Source: Terracoccus luteus (lineage in GTDB: Bacteria > Actinomycetota > Actinomycetes > Actinomycetales > Dermatophilaceae). Taken from it: DNA of 64,000 bases. This document shows, in pieces, positions 8,661 through 24,381 of the stretch. The notes beneath the pieces are model-generated. The model saw only the letters and a program-made list of their open reading frames with translations, was not told the origin of the DNA and did no database searches. The position numbers were made by a program, and so were the translations under genes. The DNA is taken from positions 2,046,001 to 2,110,000 of the forward strand of contig NZ_RBXT01000001.1 of NCBI RefSeq assembly GCF_003635045.1. The letters run 5' to 3'. Positions within the stretch are counted from its first letter, which is position 1, and each line of letters begins with the position of its first letter.

Positions 8661-8869
8661 GGCGCCAGTCTCGCAGACCCCGGACCCCCTCCCGACGCCC
8701 CCGGACCTCGGCGGGCGTCGCCCGATGCCCCTGATACCCCGCAGGCGGCCGGATGCCGTGCGGTGGCCGGTCGCCCTCCGTGCACAGGGTGGTCGGTGGC
8801 CGGGCACGCACCGTCAGGCGTGCGCGTTACCGTGGTGACGGCAGCACGAGACGCAGGAGGCACGGGGGC

Positions 8870-10051
8870 ATGGGTCGGGCACGACGGGCGAGGCGGATCG
8901 CCCAGCGGGCGGCGTACGGCGGCGGGGTCGGCGCGGCCGGCATCGGCGCCCTCGGCCTGCTCGGCTGGGGCCTGCTCAAGGTCGAGGCGCGCATCACGCG
9001 CCGCCTCGTGGGCCCGTCCACGGGTGACGCCCCCGACGACGACGGCCTCTACGGCTCGGGCGCCGGCACCCCGCTCCGCCTCCTCGTCCTCGGCGACTCG
9101 ACGGCGGCCGGGCTCGGGGCCGAGCACCCGCACCAGACCATCGGGGCGACCATCGCGAGCGGGGTCGCCGCGTTCAGCGGTCGCCCCGTCGAGCTGACCA
9201 ACGTCGCCGTCAGCGGCGCCGAGTCGACCGGTCTCGACGAGCAGGTCGAGCGCGGTCTCGCGGCCGTCACGGCGCCCGACGTCGCGCTCGTGCTCATCGG
9301 CGCCAACGACGTCACCCACCGGATCGAGCGCTCGGTCGCGGTGCGTCACCTCGAGATGGCCGTGCGCCGGCTGCGCGAGTCGGGCTCCGAGGTCGTCGTC
9401 GGCACCTGCCCCGACCTCGGCGCCATCGAGCCGCTGCAGCAGCCCCTCCGCTCGCTCGCGCGGCGCTGGTCGCGCGACCTCGCGGCGGCCCAGACCGTGG
9501 CCGTCGTCGAGGCCGGGGGGCGGGCGGTCTCCATCGGCGACCTGCTCAGCGCCGTCTTCAGCGCCGAACCCAAGGTCATGTTCAGCTCGGACCGGTTCCA
9601 CCCCAGCCCTGCCGGCTACGCGCGCGTGGCGGCGGCGCTCATGCCGACCGTCAGCGCCGCCCTCGACCTGTTCGGCGAGCGCTCCGCCCCGACCCCGCCC
9701 AACGTCCGCCGCGGCGAGGGCGTCGACCCGGTCGCCGTCGCGGCCACCCGGGCGGTCGCCAACCCGGGCACCGAGGTCGCCCCGACCGAGGTCGGCGGCC
9801 AGTCGCGCGGCCCGCGCGGACGCTGGGCCATGCTGCTGCACCGGGTGCGCCCCGTCGCGGTGCCGTCGAGCGACCCGAGGCCGAGGCCCGACGACCACGA
9901 CGAGACCGCCACCGACGAGCGCGGGTCCGTCGACGCCGCGCCTGGCACCGCGACCAGCGACCCGGACCGCGACCCGAACCGCGACTCGGACCGCGACTCG
10001 GACCGCGACCCGGAGAGGGACTCGTCCGTCACGAGCGACGCCCGCGTCTGA
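8870..10051 (+). CDS. SGNH/GDSL hydrolase, membrane-anchored
   Basis: A 393-aa protein. An uncleaved hydrophobic segment at about 17-36 anchors the N-terminus. The SGNH domain follows: block I LVLGDSTAAGLGAE with nucleophile S77, a glycine block near VAVSGAEST, block III IGANDVTHR, and block V SDRFHPSPAGYARVA with the catalytic histidine. Such enzymes hydrolyse ester bonds of lipids or acylated sugars; the substrate here is unknown. From about residue 285 the chain is low-complexity, ending in D-R-D-S style repeats encoded by a 12-bp tandem repeat. The ATG at 8870 has AGGAGG at ideal distance. It is followed by a strong terminator. Confidence 0.82.
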   Translation: MGRARRARRIAQRAAYGGGVGAAGIGALGLLGWGLLKVEARITRRLVGPSTGDAPDDDGLYGSGAGTPLRLLVLGDSTAAGLGAEHPHQTIGATIASGVAAFSGRPVELTNVAVSGAESTGLDEQVERGLAAVTAPDVALVLIGANDVTHRIERSVAVRHLEMAVRRLRESGSEVVVGTCPDLGAIEPLQQPLRSLARRWSRDLAAAQTVAVVEAGGRAVSIGDLLSAVFSAEPKVMFSSDRFHPSPAGYARVAAALMPTVSAALDLFGERSAPTPPNVRRGEGVDPVAVAATRAVANPGTEVAPTEVGGQSRGPRGRWAMLLHRVRPVAVPSSDPRPRPDDHDETATDERGSVDAAPGTATSDPDRDPNRDSDRDSDRDPERDSSVTSDARV

Positions 10052-12158: not shown

Positions 12159-12216
12159 CCTGCGCTCGACGTGACCCGTGGCCGGCGACGTCGCCGACCG
12201 TCCGCAGGAGGACCTG

Positions 12217-13440
12217 ATGCCCGAAGCCGTCATCGTCTCGACCGCCCGCTCCCCCTTCGGTCGGGCCTTCAAGGGCTCGCTCAGGGACGTGCGCCCCGAC
12301 GACCTCGCCGCCACCGTCGTCCAGGCGGCCCTCGACAAGGTGCCGGCCCTCGACCCGTCGCTCGTCGAGGACGTGTACCTCGGCTGCGCGGAGCCCTCCG
12401 GCAAGCACGGGTCGAACATGGCGCGCGTCGTCGCCACCCTGCTGGGGCTCGACCGCACACCGGCGGCGACGGTCAACCGCTTCTGCGCCAGCTCGGCCCA
12501 GACCACGCGCATGGCCTTCCACGCCATCAGGGCCGGCGAGGGCGACGTCTTCGTGTCCGCCGGTGTCGAGTGCGTGTCGCAGTACACCGACTGGGCCGGG
12601 GCCGGTGGGGCCAAGGCCGATGCGCAGAACCCCCGCTTCGCGGAGGCGCAGGAGCGCACGAAGCGCACCGCCGAGAGCAACGACACCTGGACCGACCCTC
12701 GCGAGCGGGGCGAGCTGCCCGACGTCTACATCGCCATGGGCCAGACCGCCGAGAACGTCGCCACGTCGTGCGGCATCGGCCGCGACCGGCAGGACGAGTG
12801 GGGCGTCACCTCGCAGAACCGCGCTGAGGCCGCCATCGCCCGCGGCTTCTTCGACTGGGAGATCACGCCCGTCACGACCCCTGACGGGACCGTCGTCACG
12901 AAGGACGACGGGCCCCGCGCGGGCGTCACCCTCGAGGGCGTGCAGGGCCTGAACCCCGTCTTCCGCCCGGAGGGCACCGTGACGGCCGGCAACTGCTGCC
13001 CCCTCAACGACGGCGCCGCGGCGCTCGTCGTCATGAGCGACACGCGTGCCAAGGAGCTCGGGCTCGACCCGCTCGCGCGGGTCGTCTCGACCGCCGCGAC
13101 AGGTCTCTCGCCCGAGGTCATGGGGCTCGGCCCCGTCGAGGCCAGCCGCCTGGCCCTGCAGCGGGCGGGCCTGACCATCGGCGACCTCGACCTCTACGAG
13201 ATCAACGAGGCGTTCGCGGTGCAGGTGCTGGCCTCGGCCGACCGGCTCGGCATGGACTACGACCGACTCAACGTCAACGGCGGCGCCATCGCCATCGGCC
13301 ACCCGTTCGGGGCGACCGGGGCCCGCATCACGGGCACGATCATCAACGCGCTGCGCGAGCGCGACGGGCAGTTCGGCCTCGAGACGATGTGCGTCGGTGG
13401 CGGCCAGGGCATGGCCGTCGTCTTCGAACGACTCTCCTGA
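12217..13440 (+). CDS. acetyl-CoA C-acetyltransferase (thiolase)
   Basis: A 407-aa thiolase that cleaves or forms acetoacetyl-CoA or longer 3-ketoacyl-CoA. The acylation cysteine is C90 in VNRFCASSAQTT. The second-half residues are intact: NEAFAVQVL, GGAIAIGHPFGATGAR with the catalytic histidine, and MCVGGGQGMA with C392 as the base. The length fits the degradative FadA-like group. ATG 12217 has AGGAGG five bases upstream. The TetR-type site in its promoter suggests induction by fatty acyl-CoA. It appears monocistronic, without a FadB partner, and converges on a small unknown gene. Confidence 0.92.
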   Translation: MPEAVIVSTARSPFGRAFKGSLRDVRPDDLAATVVQAALDKVPALDPSLVEDVYLGCAEPSGKHGSNMARVVATLLGLDRTPAATVNRFCASSAQTTRMAFHAIRAGEGDVFVSAGVECVSQYTDWAGAGGAKADAQNPRFAEAQERTKRTAESNDTWTDPRERGELPDVYIAMGQTAENVATSCGIGRDRQDEWGVTSQNRAEAAIARGFFDWEITPVTTPDGTVVTKDDGPRAGVTLEGVQGLNPVFRPEGTVTAGNCCPLNDGAAALVVMSDTRAKELGLDPLARVVSTAATGLSPEVMGLGPVEASRLALQRAGLTIGDLDLYEINEAFAVQVLASADRLGMDYDRLNVNGGAIAIGHPFGATGARITGTIINALRERDGQFGLETMCVGGGQGMAVVFERLS

Positions 13441-13781: not shown

Positions 13782-14669
13782 TCAGTCGCGCAGGCGGGCG
13801 AACAGACGGACGAACTCGATGTAGAGCCACACGAGCGTGACGATGAGCCCGTGGGCCAGCAGCCACGAGTACTTCGACGGGGCACCGACGCGCACGGCGT
13901 TGTCGATGGAGTCGAAGTCGATGGCGAGGGAGTAGGCCGCGAGGGCCACACCGACGACCGAGAGGATGACGCCGAAGCCGCTGCTGCCGCCGAAGCCCCA
14001 GCCGTCGAGGACGCCGGTCATGAGCAGGACGACCTGGAGCAGCGAGAAGATGCCGTAGCCGACGATGGCGAAGAAGAACATGCGCCGCGTCTTGCTCGTC
14101 ACCTTGACGAAGCCGGTCGCGTAGCCGGCGTACATGGCCACGAAGGTGCAGGCCGTGGCGAGGACGGCCGTCATGACGACGCCCTCGTACCTCGGGATGG
14201 AGTTGATGTACTGGCTGAACGCGCCGACGAAGGCACCCTGCAGCACGGCGTAGACCATGATGAGCGGGACCGACACCTTCTTCATGAAGGCGATGGCGAA
14301 CCCGAGGGCGAGCGTGCCGAACATGCCGCCCAGCCACAGCGGCAGGGTCAGGCCGGGGCTGCCGCTCGTGAGCACCCACGACGCGGCGGCGACACCGACC
14401 GTGACGACGAAGAGCACGAGGCTCTTGACGATGACGTCGTCGAGGGTCACGCGGCCGGTGTCGACCGACCCGGCGGTGTCACGCGCGTACATCTCGTCGA
14501 GCTGCTGGGCGCTCATCGCGTCCTGCGCGGCGTAGCCGGCGCTCGCCTGCTGCATGCCCTGCTGGGCGCCCTGGCCCTGCCGGCCCTGCTGCGGCTGGCC
14601 GAAGCCGGCGTAGCGCTCCTTCTCGATCTGTTTGTTGAGCCGGTCGAAGACCGGGTTGGTACCTGCCAT
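13782..14669 (-). CDS. Bax inhibitor-1/YccA family membrane protein
   Basis: A 295-aa polytopic protein. A Gln/Gly-rich cytoplasmic leader (about residues 20-50) precedes seven hydrophobic segments from about residue 75 (VIVKSLVLFVVTVGVAAASW) to the C-terminus. Family marks are SVPLIMVYAVLQGAFVGAFS, the YEGVVMTAVLATACTFVAMY helix, and the acidic pair in AIDFDSIDNAV that forms the pH-sensing di-aspartate of BsYetJ-type calcium channels. Ca2+ or proton leak is known for the family; the role here is inferred. ATG 14669 starts MAGTNPVFDRLNKQ, the usual N-terminus in actinobacteria. Confidence 0.9.
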   Translation of the reverse strand: MAGTNPVFDRLNKQIEKERYAGFGQPQQGRQGQGAQQGMQQASAGYAAQDAMSAQQLDEMYARDTAGSVDTGRVTLDDVIVKSLVLFVVTVGVAAASWVLTSGSPGLTLPLWLGGMFGTLALGFAIAFMKKVSVPLIMVYAVLQGAFVGAFSQYINSIPRYEGVVMTAVLATACTFVAMYAGYATGFVKVTSKTRRMFFFAIVGYGIFSLLQVVLLMTGVLDGWGFGGSSGFGVILSVVGVALAAYSLAIDFDSIDNAVRVGAPSKYSWLLAHGLIVTLVWLYIEFVRLFARLRD

Positions 14670-14832
14670 GAGTGAGTGCCTCCCCGACACTGGTGGCCGC
14701 GGGTGCGGCGTCTGTCACCAGACTAAGCGAACGGGGGGTCTCGGTTGGTTCCCGCACGCGCGCGCGAGGCCGCGTGTCCACCACGCCCGACCCCCGGCAT
14801 CCGGCCTCGGCATACTGTCGGTGCTGCGACAC

Positions 14833-14907
14833 GCCCCCGTGGCCCAACTGGCAGAGGCAGGCGACTTAAAATCGCCACAGGTGAGGGTTCGACCCCCTCC
14901 GGGGGTA
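14833..14907 (+). tRNA. tRNA with anticodon UAA (leucine), short variable loop
   Basis: A 75-nt cloverleaf. The acceptor stem is 14833-14839 with 14900-14906 (first pair G-U), the D arm GCC/GGC, the anticodon stem GGCGA/TCGCC with loop CTTAAAA, so anticodon TAA is at 14867-14869. A 6-base variable region (ACAGGT) is followed by T stem GAGGG/CCCTC with loop TTCGACC, discriminator A, and no encoded CCA. UAA reads the UUA leucine codon. Leucine tRNAs of bacteria are normally class II with a long variable arm, which is absent here. It lies between the divergent YccA-like and MptB genes. Confidence 0.85.
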
Positions 14908-15123
14908 CGACAGGCGCGACCGGAGGGCGGCTCGCGCCACGCACCGACGGTGCCGGGCGGGGCATCGTACCCATCCGTCGCCGCGGTGGGCGGCGTGGGA
15001 ATCGTCGTTTTCGGGCACTCCCCCGTAGAATCGGGGGGACAGAGGACCACCCGGGGCCTGATGACGTGCCGGCGGGACACTTCCGGTCGCGCCCGCGCGG
15101 ACGGACGACACCGAAGGAGCCGC

Positions 15124-16803
15124 GTGCCGAAGCAGCAGGCCGACGCGCTCGGACGGGGTGCGGTGGCGACACCCGCCCTCCCGAGCAGCCGACTCGCCGA
15201 TCTCGTGCTGCGCTGGTACGCCGTCGTCCTGCGGGTGCTGCGCGACGAGCTGCCGGCCGGTGTGGCCCAGGCCTGGGGCGACCAGCTCGTGCGCCGCGGC
15301 ATGCTCGGCATGGCCCTCATCGGCGTCGGCTCGCTCACCCCGGCCTTCCTGCCCCCCGACGCCCCGATCGTGCGCACGCTGCACCTGCAGTGGCTCAGCA
15401 CGGGTGCCGGCCGCTTCTCGGCCACCCTCGTGCTCGTCGCCGGCATGGCCCTGCTCGTCGACGCCTGGCTGCGCATGCGCCCCCGCGAGGGGTCGGCGCG
15501 GCTGCACCGCTACACGTGGCTGCTGTGGAGCCTGCCGGTGCTGCTCGCGCCGCCGCTCTTCAGCCGTGACGCCTACAGCTACGCCGCCCAGGGGCGCATC
15601 GTCGGGCTGGGCCTGAACCCCTACGAGGTCGGCCCGGTGTACGTCACCGGCGAGTTCCAGCAGTACCGCGACCAGGTCGACCCGATGTGGCTGTTCACGC
15701 CGGCGCCGTACGGCCCGCTCGCCCTGCAGCTGCAGCACGCCATCGTCTTCGTCACCGGCGACAACGCCTACCTCGCGGCGCTCGCCATGCGCCTGCCGGC
15801 CCTCGCGTCCGTCGCCCTGCTCGCCTTCACCCTGCCGCGCCTCGCCCGCCGCTTCGGCGTCAGCGCCGACCGCGCGCTGTGGCTCGGCGTCTTCAACCCG
15901 CTCGTCATGATGCACCTCGTCGGCGGCGCCCACGGCGACGCCATGATGATCGCGCTCGTCTCGCTCGCACTCCTGCTCGCCGCCCGCGGCCAGCTCTTCT
16001 GGGCCAGCGCTACCATCGCCCTGTCGGCCAACTTCAAGCAGACCGCCGTACTCGCGCTCATCGGGGTCGTGGGCCTGGCCATGCAGGCCGACACCGGGCC
16101 ACGCTCGAAGGCGGCCAAGTTCGTCCGGGCCGGCGTCGTGCACGGCGGCGTCGCCGCGGCCACGTTCACCCTGCTCACGGCGGTGTCCGGCCTCGGGTGG
16201 GGCTGGATCCCCAACCTCGCGGTGCCGGCGTCGCTGCGCTCCCTGCTCAGCCCGCCCACCCTGCTCGGCACGGCCCTCGAGGGCCTGCTGCGCATCTCCG
16301 GCGTGCCCGACTCGTGGGTCGCGGCCGCGGTGCCGCGCGTGCAGACCCTCGGCATGCTCGTGGGCCTCGTCGTCATCGCCCTCATCGCCTGGCGGGTGGG
16401 ACCCCGCCGGCCGGTGTTCGCCAGCGCGGCCGTGCTGCTCGTCCTCTGCGCCTCCGGGCCGGTCGTGCACCCGTGGTACCTCCTCTGGGGCGGCGTCCTG
16501 CTCGCGGCCTGCCGCATCGGCGAGCGCACCGTCGAGGCGATGGTGTGGGTGACGCTGTTCTTCGCGTGCTACGGCACGGTCGACGCGACGGTCTCGAACG
16601 GCACGTGGGCCCTCGGGGTCACCGCCGCCGCGTGGTTGCTCGTCAAGATGGTGCGCCGCCACCGCGAGGGTGACACCGGCGACGCCGACGGCGACGGGCC
16701 GGGCGAGAACCGAGGCCTGCTCGACGGCTTCGGCCGCCTGTCCGGCCTCGACGACCGCCGCACCCCGAGCCGGTCCCGCACCGCGCACACGATCATCTCC
16801 TGA
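15124..16803 (+). CDS. mptB: polyprenol-phosphate-mannose-dependent alpha-(1-6) mannosyltransferase, MptB-like
   Basis: A 559-aa integral membrane GT-C glycosyltransferase with about 12-13 hydrophobic segments from residue 60 on. The family blocks are an extracytoplasmic loop SRDAYSYAAQGRIVGLGLNPYEVGP with the aspartate used for catalysis, FTPAPYGPLALQ, and VGGAHGDAMMIAL. MptB extends the mannan backbone of lipoglycans from polyprenyl-phosphomannose on the outer membrane face. GTG 15124 is preferred because GAAGGAG precedes it; an ATG at 15061 would add 21 unlikely basic residues. The C-terminal 45 residues are charged and cytoplasmic. It is probably a single gene transcribed away from the tRNA. 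Confidence 0.85.
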   Translation: MPKQQADALGRGAVATPALPSSRLADLVLRWYAVVLRVLRDELPAGVAQAWGDQLVRRGMLGMALIGVGSLTPAFLPPDAPIVRTLHLQWLSTGAGRFSATLVLVAGMALLVDAWLRMRPREGSARLHRYTWLLWSLPVLLAPPLFSRDAYSYAAQGRIVGLGLNPYEVGPVYVTGEFQQYRDQVDPMWLFTPAPYGPLALQLQHAIVFVTGDNAYLAALAMRLPALASVALLAFTLPRLARRFGVSADRALWLGVFNPLVMMHLVGGAHGDAMMIALVSLALLLAARGQLFWASATIALSANFKQTAVLALIGVVGLAMQADTGPRSKAAKFVRAGVVHGGVAAATFTLLTAVSGLGWGWIPNLAVPASLRSLLSPPTLLGTALEGLLRISGVPDSWVAAAVPRVQTLGMLVGLVVIALIAWRVGPRRPVFASAAVLLVLCASGPVVHPWYLLWGGVLLAACRIGERTVEAMVWVTLFFACYGTVDATVSNGTWALGVTAAAWLLVKMVRRHREGDTGDADGDGPGENRGLLDGFGRLSGLDDRRTPSRSRTAHTIIS

Positions 16804-20443: not shown

Positions 20444-21439
20444 TCAGACCTGGCTCAGGGCGATGCCGTCGAGGATGTCGTGCTCGGAGGTGATGACCTC
20501 ACCGATGCCGGCCCGATCGCGCAACCGGGTGACGATGCGGCTCCAGACCAGCGCACCGGCCCCGATGACGTCGACGCGGCCGGGGTGCATGTAGGGCAGG
20601 GCCGCCCGCCGCTCTCGGGTCATGGCGAGCAGGTCGGCGCAGGCCGCGAGGGTCTCGTCCACCCCTCCCCGGGCGAGGTGGATGCGCTCGGGTTCGTACG
20701 TCGGCAGCCGCAGCCGGTGGGCCGTGATCGTCGTGACGCTGCCCGCGAGGCCGACGAGCGCCCGGATGCCGTCGAAGCCGACCTCCGCGGCCGCGGCGTC
20801 GATGGCGGCGTCGACGTCGCGCGTGGCGGCCGCGATCTGGTCCGGCGTCGGCGGGTCGCTGAGGAGGTGGCGCTCGGTCATGCGCACGCACCCGACGTCG
20901 ACCGACCGGGCCGCCTCGACGGCATCCGTGCCGCGGACGAACTCCGTCGAGCCACCGCCGAGGTCGACGACGAGGTAAGGGCCGGGCACCCCGCCGCCGA
21001 CGAGGTCGCCCGTGGCTCCGGTGAACGAGAGGGAGGCCTCCTCGTCGCCCGACACGACCTCGGGGGTCACGTCGGCGCCCCAGTGCTCGGCGAAGGCCCG
21101 GCGCACGCCCTCGACGAACTCGCCGGCGTTGCGGGCGTCGCGGGAGGCGGAGGTGGCCACGAACCGCACCCGCTCGGCGCCGAGCTCGCGGCAGGAGGCG
21201 GCGTACTCGGCGGCGACACGCAGGGTGCGCTGCATCGACTCGGGCGCGATGACGCCCGTGCGGTCGACGCCGTGGCCGAGGCGCACGATCTCCATGCGGC
21301 GCAGCACGTCCGTGACCGCCCGTGTGCCGCGGTCGATGTCGGCCACGAGCAGGCGGATGCTGTTGGTACCGCAGTCGACCGCGCCGACGCGCACCGTCGT
21401 TCCTGAGGCGTCGTGGGTGTCGGGGGTGCTGTCGCTCAT
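20444..21439 (-). CDS. ppx: exopolyphosphatase/pppGpp phosphohydrolase (Ppx/GppA, short form)
   Basis: A 331-aa ASKHA-fold phosphatase. The first phosphate loop is VGAVDCGTNSIRLLVAD, followed by RFVATSASRDARN, the second loop YLVVDLGGGSTEFV and the adenosine-type motif ALVGLAGSVTTITA. It has only the two N-terminal domains of E. coli Ppx, like the short mycobacterial Ppx1. It hydrolyses terminal phosphate from polyphosphate, or pppGpp. Its ATG at 21439 overlaps the DUF501 stop (ATGA). It is the last gene of the eno-ftsB-DUF501-ppx run, an order conserved in actinobacteria. Choice of substrate is uncertain. Confidence 0.9.
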   Translation of the reverse strand: MSDSTPDTHDASGTTVRVGAVDCGTNSIRLLVADIDRGTRAVTDVLRRMEIVRLGHGVDRTGVIAPESMQRTLRVAAEYAASCRELGAERVRFVATSASRDARNAGEFVEGVRRAFAEHWGADVTPEVVSGDEEASLSFTGATGDLVGGGVPGPYLVVDLGGGSTEFVRGTDAVEAARSVDVGCVRMTERHLLSDPPTPDQIAAATRDVDAAIDAAAAEVGFDGIRALVGLAGSVTTITAHRLRLPTYEPERIHLARGGVDETLAACADLLAMTRERRAALPYMHPGRVDVIGAGALVWSRIVTRLRDRAGIGEVITSEHDILDGIALSQV

Positions 21440-22023
21440 CGCTGCGCCTGCTCGTCGGAGGTGTCGTCGCGCCGGTGCTGGTCGGCGCACGAGAACGGCT
21501 GCCACCACGGCTCGAGCATCTCGAGCGCCTCGTCGCCGAGGGGGTTGACCCCCGGGCCGGCGGCGAGGGAGTGGGCCACGAGCACGTGCAGGCACTTGAC
21601 CCGGGTCGGCATGCCCCCGGCCGAGACACCGTGGATCTCGGGGACGTCACCCAGCTCGGCGCGCGAGGCGAGGTAGGCCTCGTGGGCCCGCGCGTAGGCC
21701 GCCGCCAGCTGCTCGTCGTCGGCGAGACGCTCCGTCATCGTCCGCATCGTGCCGGCCGTCTCGAGGGTGCTCACGGCGCCGGTGAGGCGCGGGCACGTGG
21801 CGTAGTACGTCGTCGGGAAGGGCGTGCCGTCGGGCAGCCGCGGCTGGGTGCGCAGCACGTCGGGCTCCCCGCACGGGCAGCGGTGCGCCACGGCGGCCAC
21901 GCCACGCGGCGGCCGGCCGAGCTGGCGGTGGACCGCCTCGAGGTCGGCCGGGTCGACGCCGTCGGTGCCGTCGGTGCCGTCGACGGAGAGGTCGGCGGTG
22001 CCCGCCGGGTCGGGGTCGGTCAT
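21436..22023 (-). CDS. DUF501 domain protein
   Basis: A 195-aa protein of the actinobacteria-specific DUF501 family. Recognisable blocks are VHRQLGRPPRGVAAVAHRCPCG with a Cys pair, VLRTQPRLPDGTPFPTTYYATCPRL, and SAGGMPTRVKCLHVLVAHSLAAGPGVNPLGDEAL. The conserved cysteines and histidines (HRCPCG, CPRL, KCLH) look like a metal site. The function is unknown; its constant place between ftsB and ppx suggests a link to envelope or phosphate physiology, which is only context. It starts 7 bases after ftsB and is coupled to ppx. Confidence 0.9.
   Translation of the reverse strand: MTDPDPAGTADLSVDGTDGTDGVDPADLEAVHRQLGRPPRGVAAVAHRCPCGEPDVLRTQPRLPDGTPFPTTYYATCPRLTGAVSTLETAGTMRTMTERLADDEQLAAAYARAHEAYLASRAELGDVPEIHGVSAGGMPTRVKCLHVLVAHSLAAGPGVNPLGDEALEMLEPWWQPFSCADQHRRDDTSDEQAQR

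Positions 22024-22717: not shown

Positions 22718-24381
<1,664 letters not shown>

Follow-up and report, generated by a model that had tools for sequence, protein, structure and literature searches.

Leucine tRNAs keep their long variable arm except in animal mitochondria, according to a 2023 review (PMC9976931). The same review reports that E. coli LeuRS requires A73, A15-U48, G18G19 and A20a, with A14 as a further reported element of recognition, and that leucylation by this enzyme shows no correlation with the sequence or folding of the variable arm, arm-less variants being active (PMC9976931). In mycobacteria, a tRNALeu(TAG) with a short variable loop has been noted in a tRNA cluster (PMC6582537), and the M. 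tuberculosis gene leuX is tabulated as Leu_TAA with 74 bp (PMC9336784), which is a class I length. For bldA, the UAA tRNA of Streptomyces, Chandra and Chater considered that the broader developmental significance may stop at Streptomycineae (PMC4255298). In the open-access literature we found no account of a class I tRNALeu(UAA) as the general UAA tRNA of actinobacteria, nor of a class I tRNA sharing the bldA locus.

We analysed a stretch of 64,000 nucleotides of Terracoccus luteus DNA (NZ_RBXT01000001.1, positions 2,046,001 to 2,110,000; hereafter the window), which carries a class I tRNA gene with the anticodon UAA. We are highly confident in the account as a whole, namely that this would be a working class I tRNALeu charged by LeuRS, the sole UAA tRNA of its genome, and a vertically inherited orthologue of bldA.

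Structure and surroundings of the tRNA gene

ARAGORN placed a tRNA-Leu(taa) at 14833-14908, the final base being past A73, and the Rfam model RF00005 covered 14833-14907 from end to end (49.6 bits, E 1.3e-7), this being the sole Rfam match of the window. Reading of the sequence gave the acceptor stem GCCCCCG/CGGGGGU, with a G1-U72 wobble, the anticodon stem GGCGA/UCGCC and the T stem GAGGG/CCCUC. The variable region has six bases, short of the roughly ten or more that mark class II, and its last base, U48, pairs with A15 (the Levitt pair). In a set of 33 diverse homologues, both bacterial and phage, standard pairs occupied 99.4% of the cloverleaf cells, compensatory changes were seen in 16 of the 20 pairs, and the covariation score was 0.718 versus 0.202 in shuffles (0/500 shuffles). 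Because these changes compensate one another across homologues, the short variable region belongs to a real family and is not a misreading. The complete cloverleaf, UAA anticodon and six-base variable region described in the initial annotation were thus confirmed by ARAGORN, RF00005, direct reading and covariation. Upstream, a TANNNT box lay at -26..-7 in 90 of 141 homologous bacterial genes, versus 11.6 expected from shuffles, and the tRNA is presumably expressed.

Table 1 Features of the tRNA gene and its neighbours (positions in the window)
Feature	Position	Strand	Support or remark
Unnamed protein, in block shared with bldA loci	8753..10051	+	51-54% identity over about 290 aa
Thiolase (acetyl-CoA acetyltransferase), conserved neighbour	12178..13440	+	
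BaxI_1 family membrane protein, conserved neighbour	13782..14690	-	PF12811, 226.8 bits
TACTGT, probable -10 element	14813..14818	+	TANNNT box conserved upstream
Class I tRNALeu(UAA), 75 nt, no encoded CCA	14833..14907	+	ARAGORN, Rfam, direct sequence reading, covariation
Leu-type D arm: 3-bp stem GCC/GGC, C13, loop AACTGGCAGA (A14, A15, G18 G19, A20a)	14842..14858	+	Invariant in 33 homologues
Anticodon loop CTTAAAA (RNA CUUAAAA), anticodon TAA at 14867-14869	14865..14871	+	ARAGORN, sequence reading
Short variable region ACAGGT (RNA ACAGGU, 6 nt)	14877..14882	+	Sequence reading, homologues
Discriminator A73	14907	+	A73 in 249/252 homologues
MptB-like alpha-1,6-mannosyltransferase, directly downstream of tRNA	15124-16803		NF038066, 180.7 bits (cut-off 40)
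Ppx/GppA-like exopolyphosphatase, other flank	20444..21595	-	TIGR03706, 178.6 bits, below curated cut-off of 307
Enolase (eno), other flank of ancestral locus	22718..24019	-	

Along the window, the unnamed protein gene is followed by those for thiolase and BaxI_1, the tRNA and the MptB-like protein, and, farther on, by the ppx-like gene and eno. The real start of BaxI_1 is probably at 14669. The MptB-like gene adjoins the tRNA in the closest relatives only. Among the matches listed, the closest locus in a named genome was that of a Terracoccus (L214), with 87% identity for the thiolase and 73% for BaxI_1.

The genome searched for tRNAs (4,023,595 bases in one contig, 99.87% complete) gave 47 RF00005 matches. 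ARAGORN, run on these, assigned the other leucine tRNAs to the anticodons CAA, CAG, GAG and UAG, all of class II and reading UUG or CUN. No second UAA tRNA was found among the 47 matches, and the class I gene is the only one of its genome. The proposal that it was a second isoacceptor was thereby refuted; the normal class II tRNA-Leu(UAA) that might have stood elsewhere in the genome was found neither with RF00005 nor with ARAGORN.

Two other matches in this genome were unusual. The one at G000:C1:3146892-3146951 (L045; 30 bits) is the 3' part of a tRNA-Phe without its 5' part, perhaps the remnant of an attachment site used by an integrative element. The other, at G000:C1:2160732-2160810 (L044), is an oddly shaped tRNA-Gln(TTG) of 80 nt by ARAGORN that scored only 40 bits; a match about as weak is present in a relative of the same family (G349).

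Leucine, UUA codons and the retention of the tRNA

The D-arm pattern of the class I tRNA (3-bp stem, unpaired position 13, loop AA-YY-GG-N-AGA) is found in all five leucine tRNAs of this genome and in no other isotype, the Asn, Lys, Trp and two Gly tRNAs having the same D-loop letters in a different stem register. The elements recognized by LeuRS (PMC9976931), i.e. A73, A14, A15-U48, G18G19 and A20a, are all present. We then considered the residues aligned with 200 UUA codons from 36 loci of genomes bearing the class I tRNA; 157 of these codons came from five loci of 41-51% GC, so that the test rests mostly on lower-GC relatives. Leucine was the aligned residue at a frequency of 0.59, like that of the CUN and UUG controls, and the log-likelihood was -342.8 for leucine and -479.1 for the next candidate, methionine (136 log units apart). 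In the high-GC loci alone (29 UUA codons), it was -63.7 for leucine versus -75.9 for isoleucine (12 log units). Among strongly conserved columns at UUA in the whole set, 49 of 52 held leucine. In IMCC26103, where UUA is frequent (its locus has 35), the 38 tRNAs include two for UAA, both class I, with no class II UAA tRNA. Direct support from the genome of the window is confined to one credible UUA codon in the sample described below. Because of the leucine-exclusive D arm, the LeuRS elements and the alignment of UUA codons with leucine, the class I UAA tRNA most likely carries leucine.

We estimated codon usage from 675 predicted ORFs with 244,305 codons, in a sample of 864 kb (21% of the genome). 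UUA was the rarest codon, with 11 raw occurrences versus about 598 expected from base composition, and of the 312 TTA trinucleotides a frame-by-frame coding test placed a single one in a coding-looking frame, which bears out the initial remark that UUA is almost absent. Ten of the 11 raw codons failed this test and were rejected as evidence for UUA-containing genes. In each case with a recognizable Pfam domain, the UUA sat upstream of it, pointing to probable over-calls of the start. The sole raw UUA of the window in the ORF scan was the anticodon of the tRNA itself, inside an over-long ORF. By extrapolation, the whole genome would hold about five UUA codons, and at most a few tens. The one credible codon faces CTC in two relatives.

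Several explanations other than an ordinary leucine tRNA were considered. Reassignment of UUA to a different amino acid would cost little where the codon is almost unused, and a short variable region is atypical for a bacterial tRNALeu; yet UUA codons align with leucine in the loci that bear class I tRNAs, and the D arm and the full set of LeuRS elements contradict this idea, raised in the initial annotation, which we regard as extremely improbable. A switch of the bldA type, acting on UUA-containing genes, would fit the position of the gene and the extreme rarity of the codon. However, relatives have CTC at the site of the one UUA codon judged credible, the 21% of the genome sampled showed no conserved UUA in regulatory or developmental genes and no sign of a developmental role, and the significance of bldA in development may not reach beyond Streptomycineae (PMC4255298). 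The regulatory role that had been suggested was therefore unsupported, and we consider it very unlikely. A stronger contender, though one we would still not favour, is that the tRNA is kept mainly for decoding UUG by wobble, or for a role other than decoding, rather than for UUA: about one credible UUA codon was found in 864 kb, and nearly every relative keeps a UAA tRNA, including two with divergent copies (G349 and G054). Against this, a few UUA codons in important genes would be enough to keep the tRNA, and UUG is already served in this genome by the class II CAA tRNA. The simplest reasons for its retention would be the reading of UUG by wobble together with that of the few UUA codons.

Distribution of the two classes and the bldA locus

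A sequence pattern fitting both structural classes was run over 58 relatives of the same order. It matched in 55, with a class I tRNA in 53 and a class II tRNA in two (G038 and G053). The two genomes G349 and G054, both missed by the pattern, carry divergent UAA tRNAs, and the absence of any UAA tRNA from them was therefore rejected. In the family of G038 and G054 (L466, L583, L594), which belongs to the same order, the UAA tRNAs are class II; the tRNALeu(CAA) of G054 is class I, the opposite of the genome of the window, the class being swapped between the two UUR isoacceptors. The sole UAA tRNA of G349 (C3:310125-310300, L566), of the same family as the genome of the window, is aberrant, with a shortened D loop without A20a and G20b and a longer variable region, possibly through decay or rewiring where UUA is almost unused.

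A scan of named GTDB genomes returned at least 119 stretches, most of them real class I tRNAs (at least about 100 loci, mostly actinobacterial). Among the matches listed, class I was found in Mycobacterium, whose loci carry the same class I sequence, Nocardia, Corynebacterium, Rhodococcus, Gordonia, Tsukamurella, Amycolatopsis, Pseudonocardia, Streptosporangium, Actinomadura, Blastococcus, Microbacterium, Arthrobacter, Bifidobacteriaceae and others, and, scattered, in a few genomes of other phyla. The suggestion that similar tRNAs exist in other actinobacteria thus proved right, while the premise that bacterial tRNALeu is always class II is wrong for the UUR-reading tRNALeu of Actinobacteria. 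Class II UAA tRNAs were found in Streptomyces-like genomes (the label of this family, f21, being inferred, partly from a tRNA sequence matching bldA) and in other families of the same phylum. One locus assigned to class II by ARAGORN (L071) has a variable region of 5 nt and was left out of the class II count. IMCC26103 (L141, L452) has a class I CAA tRNA beside its two class I UAA tRNAs.

Both classes share the same neighbours. In six genomes (four Streptomyces-like, two of another family), a class II UAA tRNA adjoins this same thiolase and BaxI_1 pair, two of the six having the ppx-like gene at a greater distance; ppx and eno adjoin the class II gene of G038, from the order of the window, and also, in G100 (family f22), a class I gene. 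Class I UAA tRNA genes lie near BaxI_1 in 57 cases and near ppx in 63; for genuine class II genes the numbers are 6 and 5, respectively. These are counts of loci and not of independent events, since they include overlapping loci from a few of the same genomes (L046-L107). The side and orientation seen at bldA are kept in 45 of the 57 class I loci with BaxI_1 and in 59 of the 63 with ppx. Twelve of the 57, i.e. the window, its closest relatives and a few others, have the tRNA inverted with respect to BaxI_1, and the locus is not strictly frozen. Since the neighbours (thiolase, BaxI_1 / ppx, eno) are common to both classes, the class I gene is, by position, the orthologue of Streptomyces bldA, with the locus in common but without the class II structure; a single tRNA gene has therefore switched structural class within Actinobacteria. 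The contrast with bldA drawn in the initial annotation overlooked this orthology. Positions 9-13 change jointly between the classes, reading G-GYG-R in class II and R-GCC-C in class I.

The same D arm, a variable region of 5-6 nt and A73 were found in at least 118 phage contigs of IMG/VR, the invariant D arm (TAGCCCAA..GGCAGAGGCA) being identical in all of these. Blastn matches in 98 phage records were mostly tRNA-Leu where annotated, and phage class I tRNALeu have the anticodons TAA, CAA, TAG and GAG. Some contigs carry class I tRNALeu of several anticodons; L313 and L330 show these four, so that one phage contig holds an almost full leucine set lacking the arm.

These phage forms raise the possibility, which we consider unlikely, that the class II gene at the bldA locus recombined with, or gave way to, a class I tRNALeu of phage type, which came with its whole D-arm core. 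The identity of D arm and A73 in phages, the variety of phage anticodons, the joint change of several core positions and the scattered occurrence in other phyla would all agree with this. Phages may equally have acquired their class I tRNALeu from hosts, however; a molecule of 75 nt yields no reliable tree, and loss of the arm in place explains both the side and the orientation kept at most loci without any transfer. Still less probable, in our view, is a broader version in which tRNALeu without the arm are a lineage of their own, frequent in phages, which took over from class II at the bldA locus in most Actinomycetes and was kept there for a purpose other than reading UUA.

The reading that we prefer builds on what the sequences show: a single UAA tRNA, its homology and covariation, leucine as the residue at UUA codons, and the common locus. 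LeuRS would charge the tRNA through A73, A14, A15-U48, G18G19 and A20a, with no need for a variable arm, and the wobble base U34 would let it read UUA and probably UUG. The gene would have been inherited vertically at its locus, as class II in Streptomyces and others and as class I in most Actinomycetes. For the direction of the switch, we infer that, within Actinobacteria, the gene either shed its variable arm or made way for an arm-less tRNALeu, the D-arm core switching alongside from G9-GYG-R13 to R9-GCC-C13. The gene thus appears to be a normal, vertically inherited leucine tRNA, and the exotic readings fall away: the description first given of it and its actinobacterial kin stand, while, of the three options offered, an additional isoacceptor is refuted, another amino acid is contradicted and regulation found no support in the sample of the genome.

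Comparison with known systems

Across the greater part of a bacterial phylum, and in many phages, UUA would be read by a class I tRNALeu, against the textbook rule of the long arm, a rule both broken and, in the class II gene of Streptomyces, kept at one same locus. This offers a natural series for asking how LeuRS separates arm-less tRNALeu from serine and tyrosine tRNAs and how tRNA class evolves. It also puts bldA in context, the locus being ancestral and its regulatory use seemingly not. The persistence of a class I copy amid almost no UUA codons makes the reason for keeping the tRNA directly testable.

Animal mitochondrial tRNALeu(UUR) resembles the present tRNA in reading UUR without a long arm and in having A14 and A73 as identity elements (PMC9976931), but it belongs to an organelle and represents an independent loss. 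M. tuberculosis leuX is alike in length, anticodon and kind of gene; unlike here, it is an annotation only, and the passages on it pass over the missing arm (PMC9336784). The tRNALeu(TAG) of the mycobacterial cluster is also a tRNALeu without the long arm (PMC6582537), but it is an extra, clustered copy with another anticodon, whereas the present gene is the sole chromosomal UAA tRNA. Phage class I tRNALeu share the invariant D arm, the variable region of 5-6 nt and A73, and differ by acceptor and anticodon stems that vary freely and by their several anticodons. A further counterpart is bldA of Streptomyces, with the same anticodon, the same status as sole UAA tRNA, the same place between thiolase/BaxI_1 and ppx/eno, and UUA as the rarest codon. 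Yet, bldA is a class II tRNA of 85-86 nt, with the core GGUGGAAUG in place of the GGCCCAACUGG of the class I tRNA.
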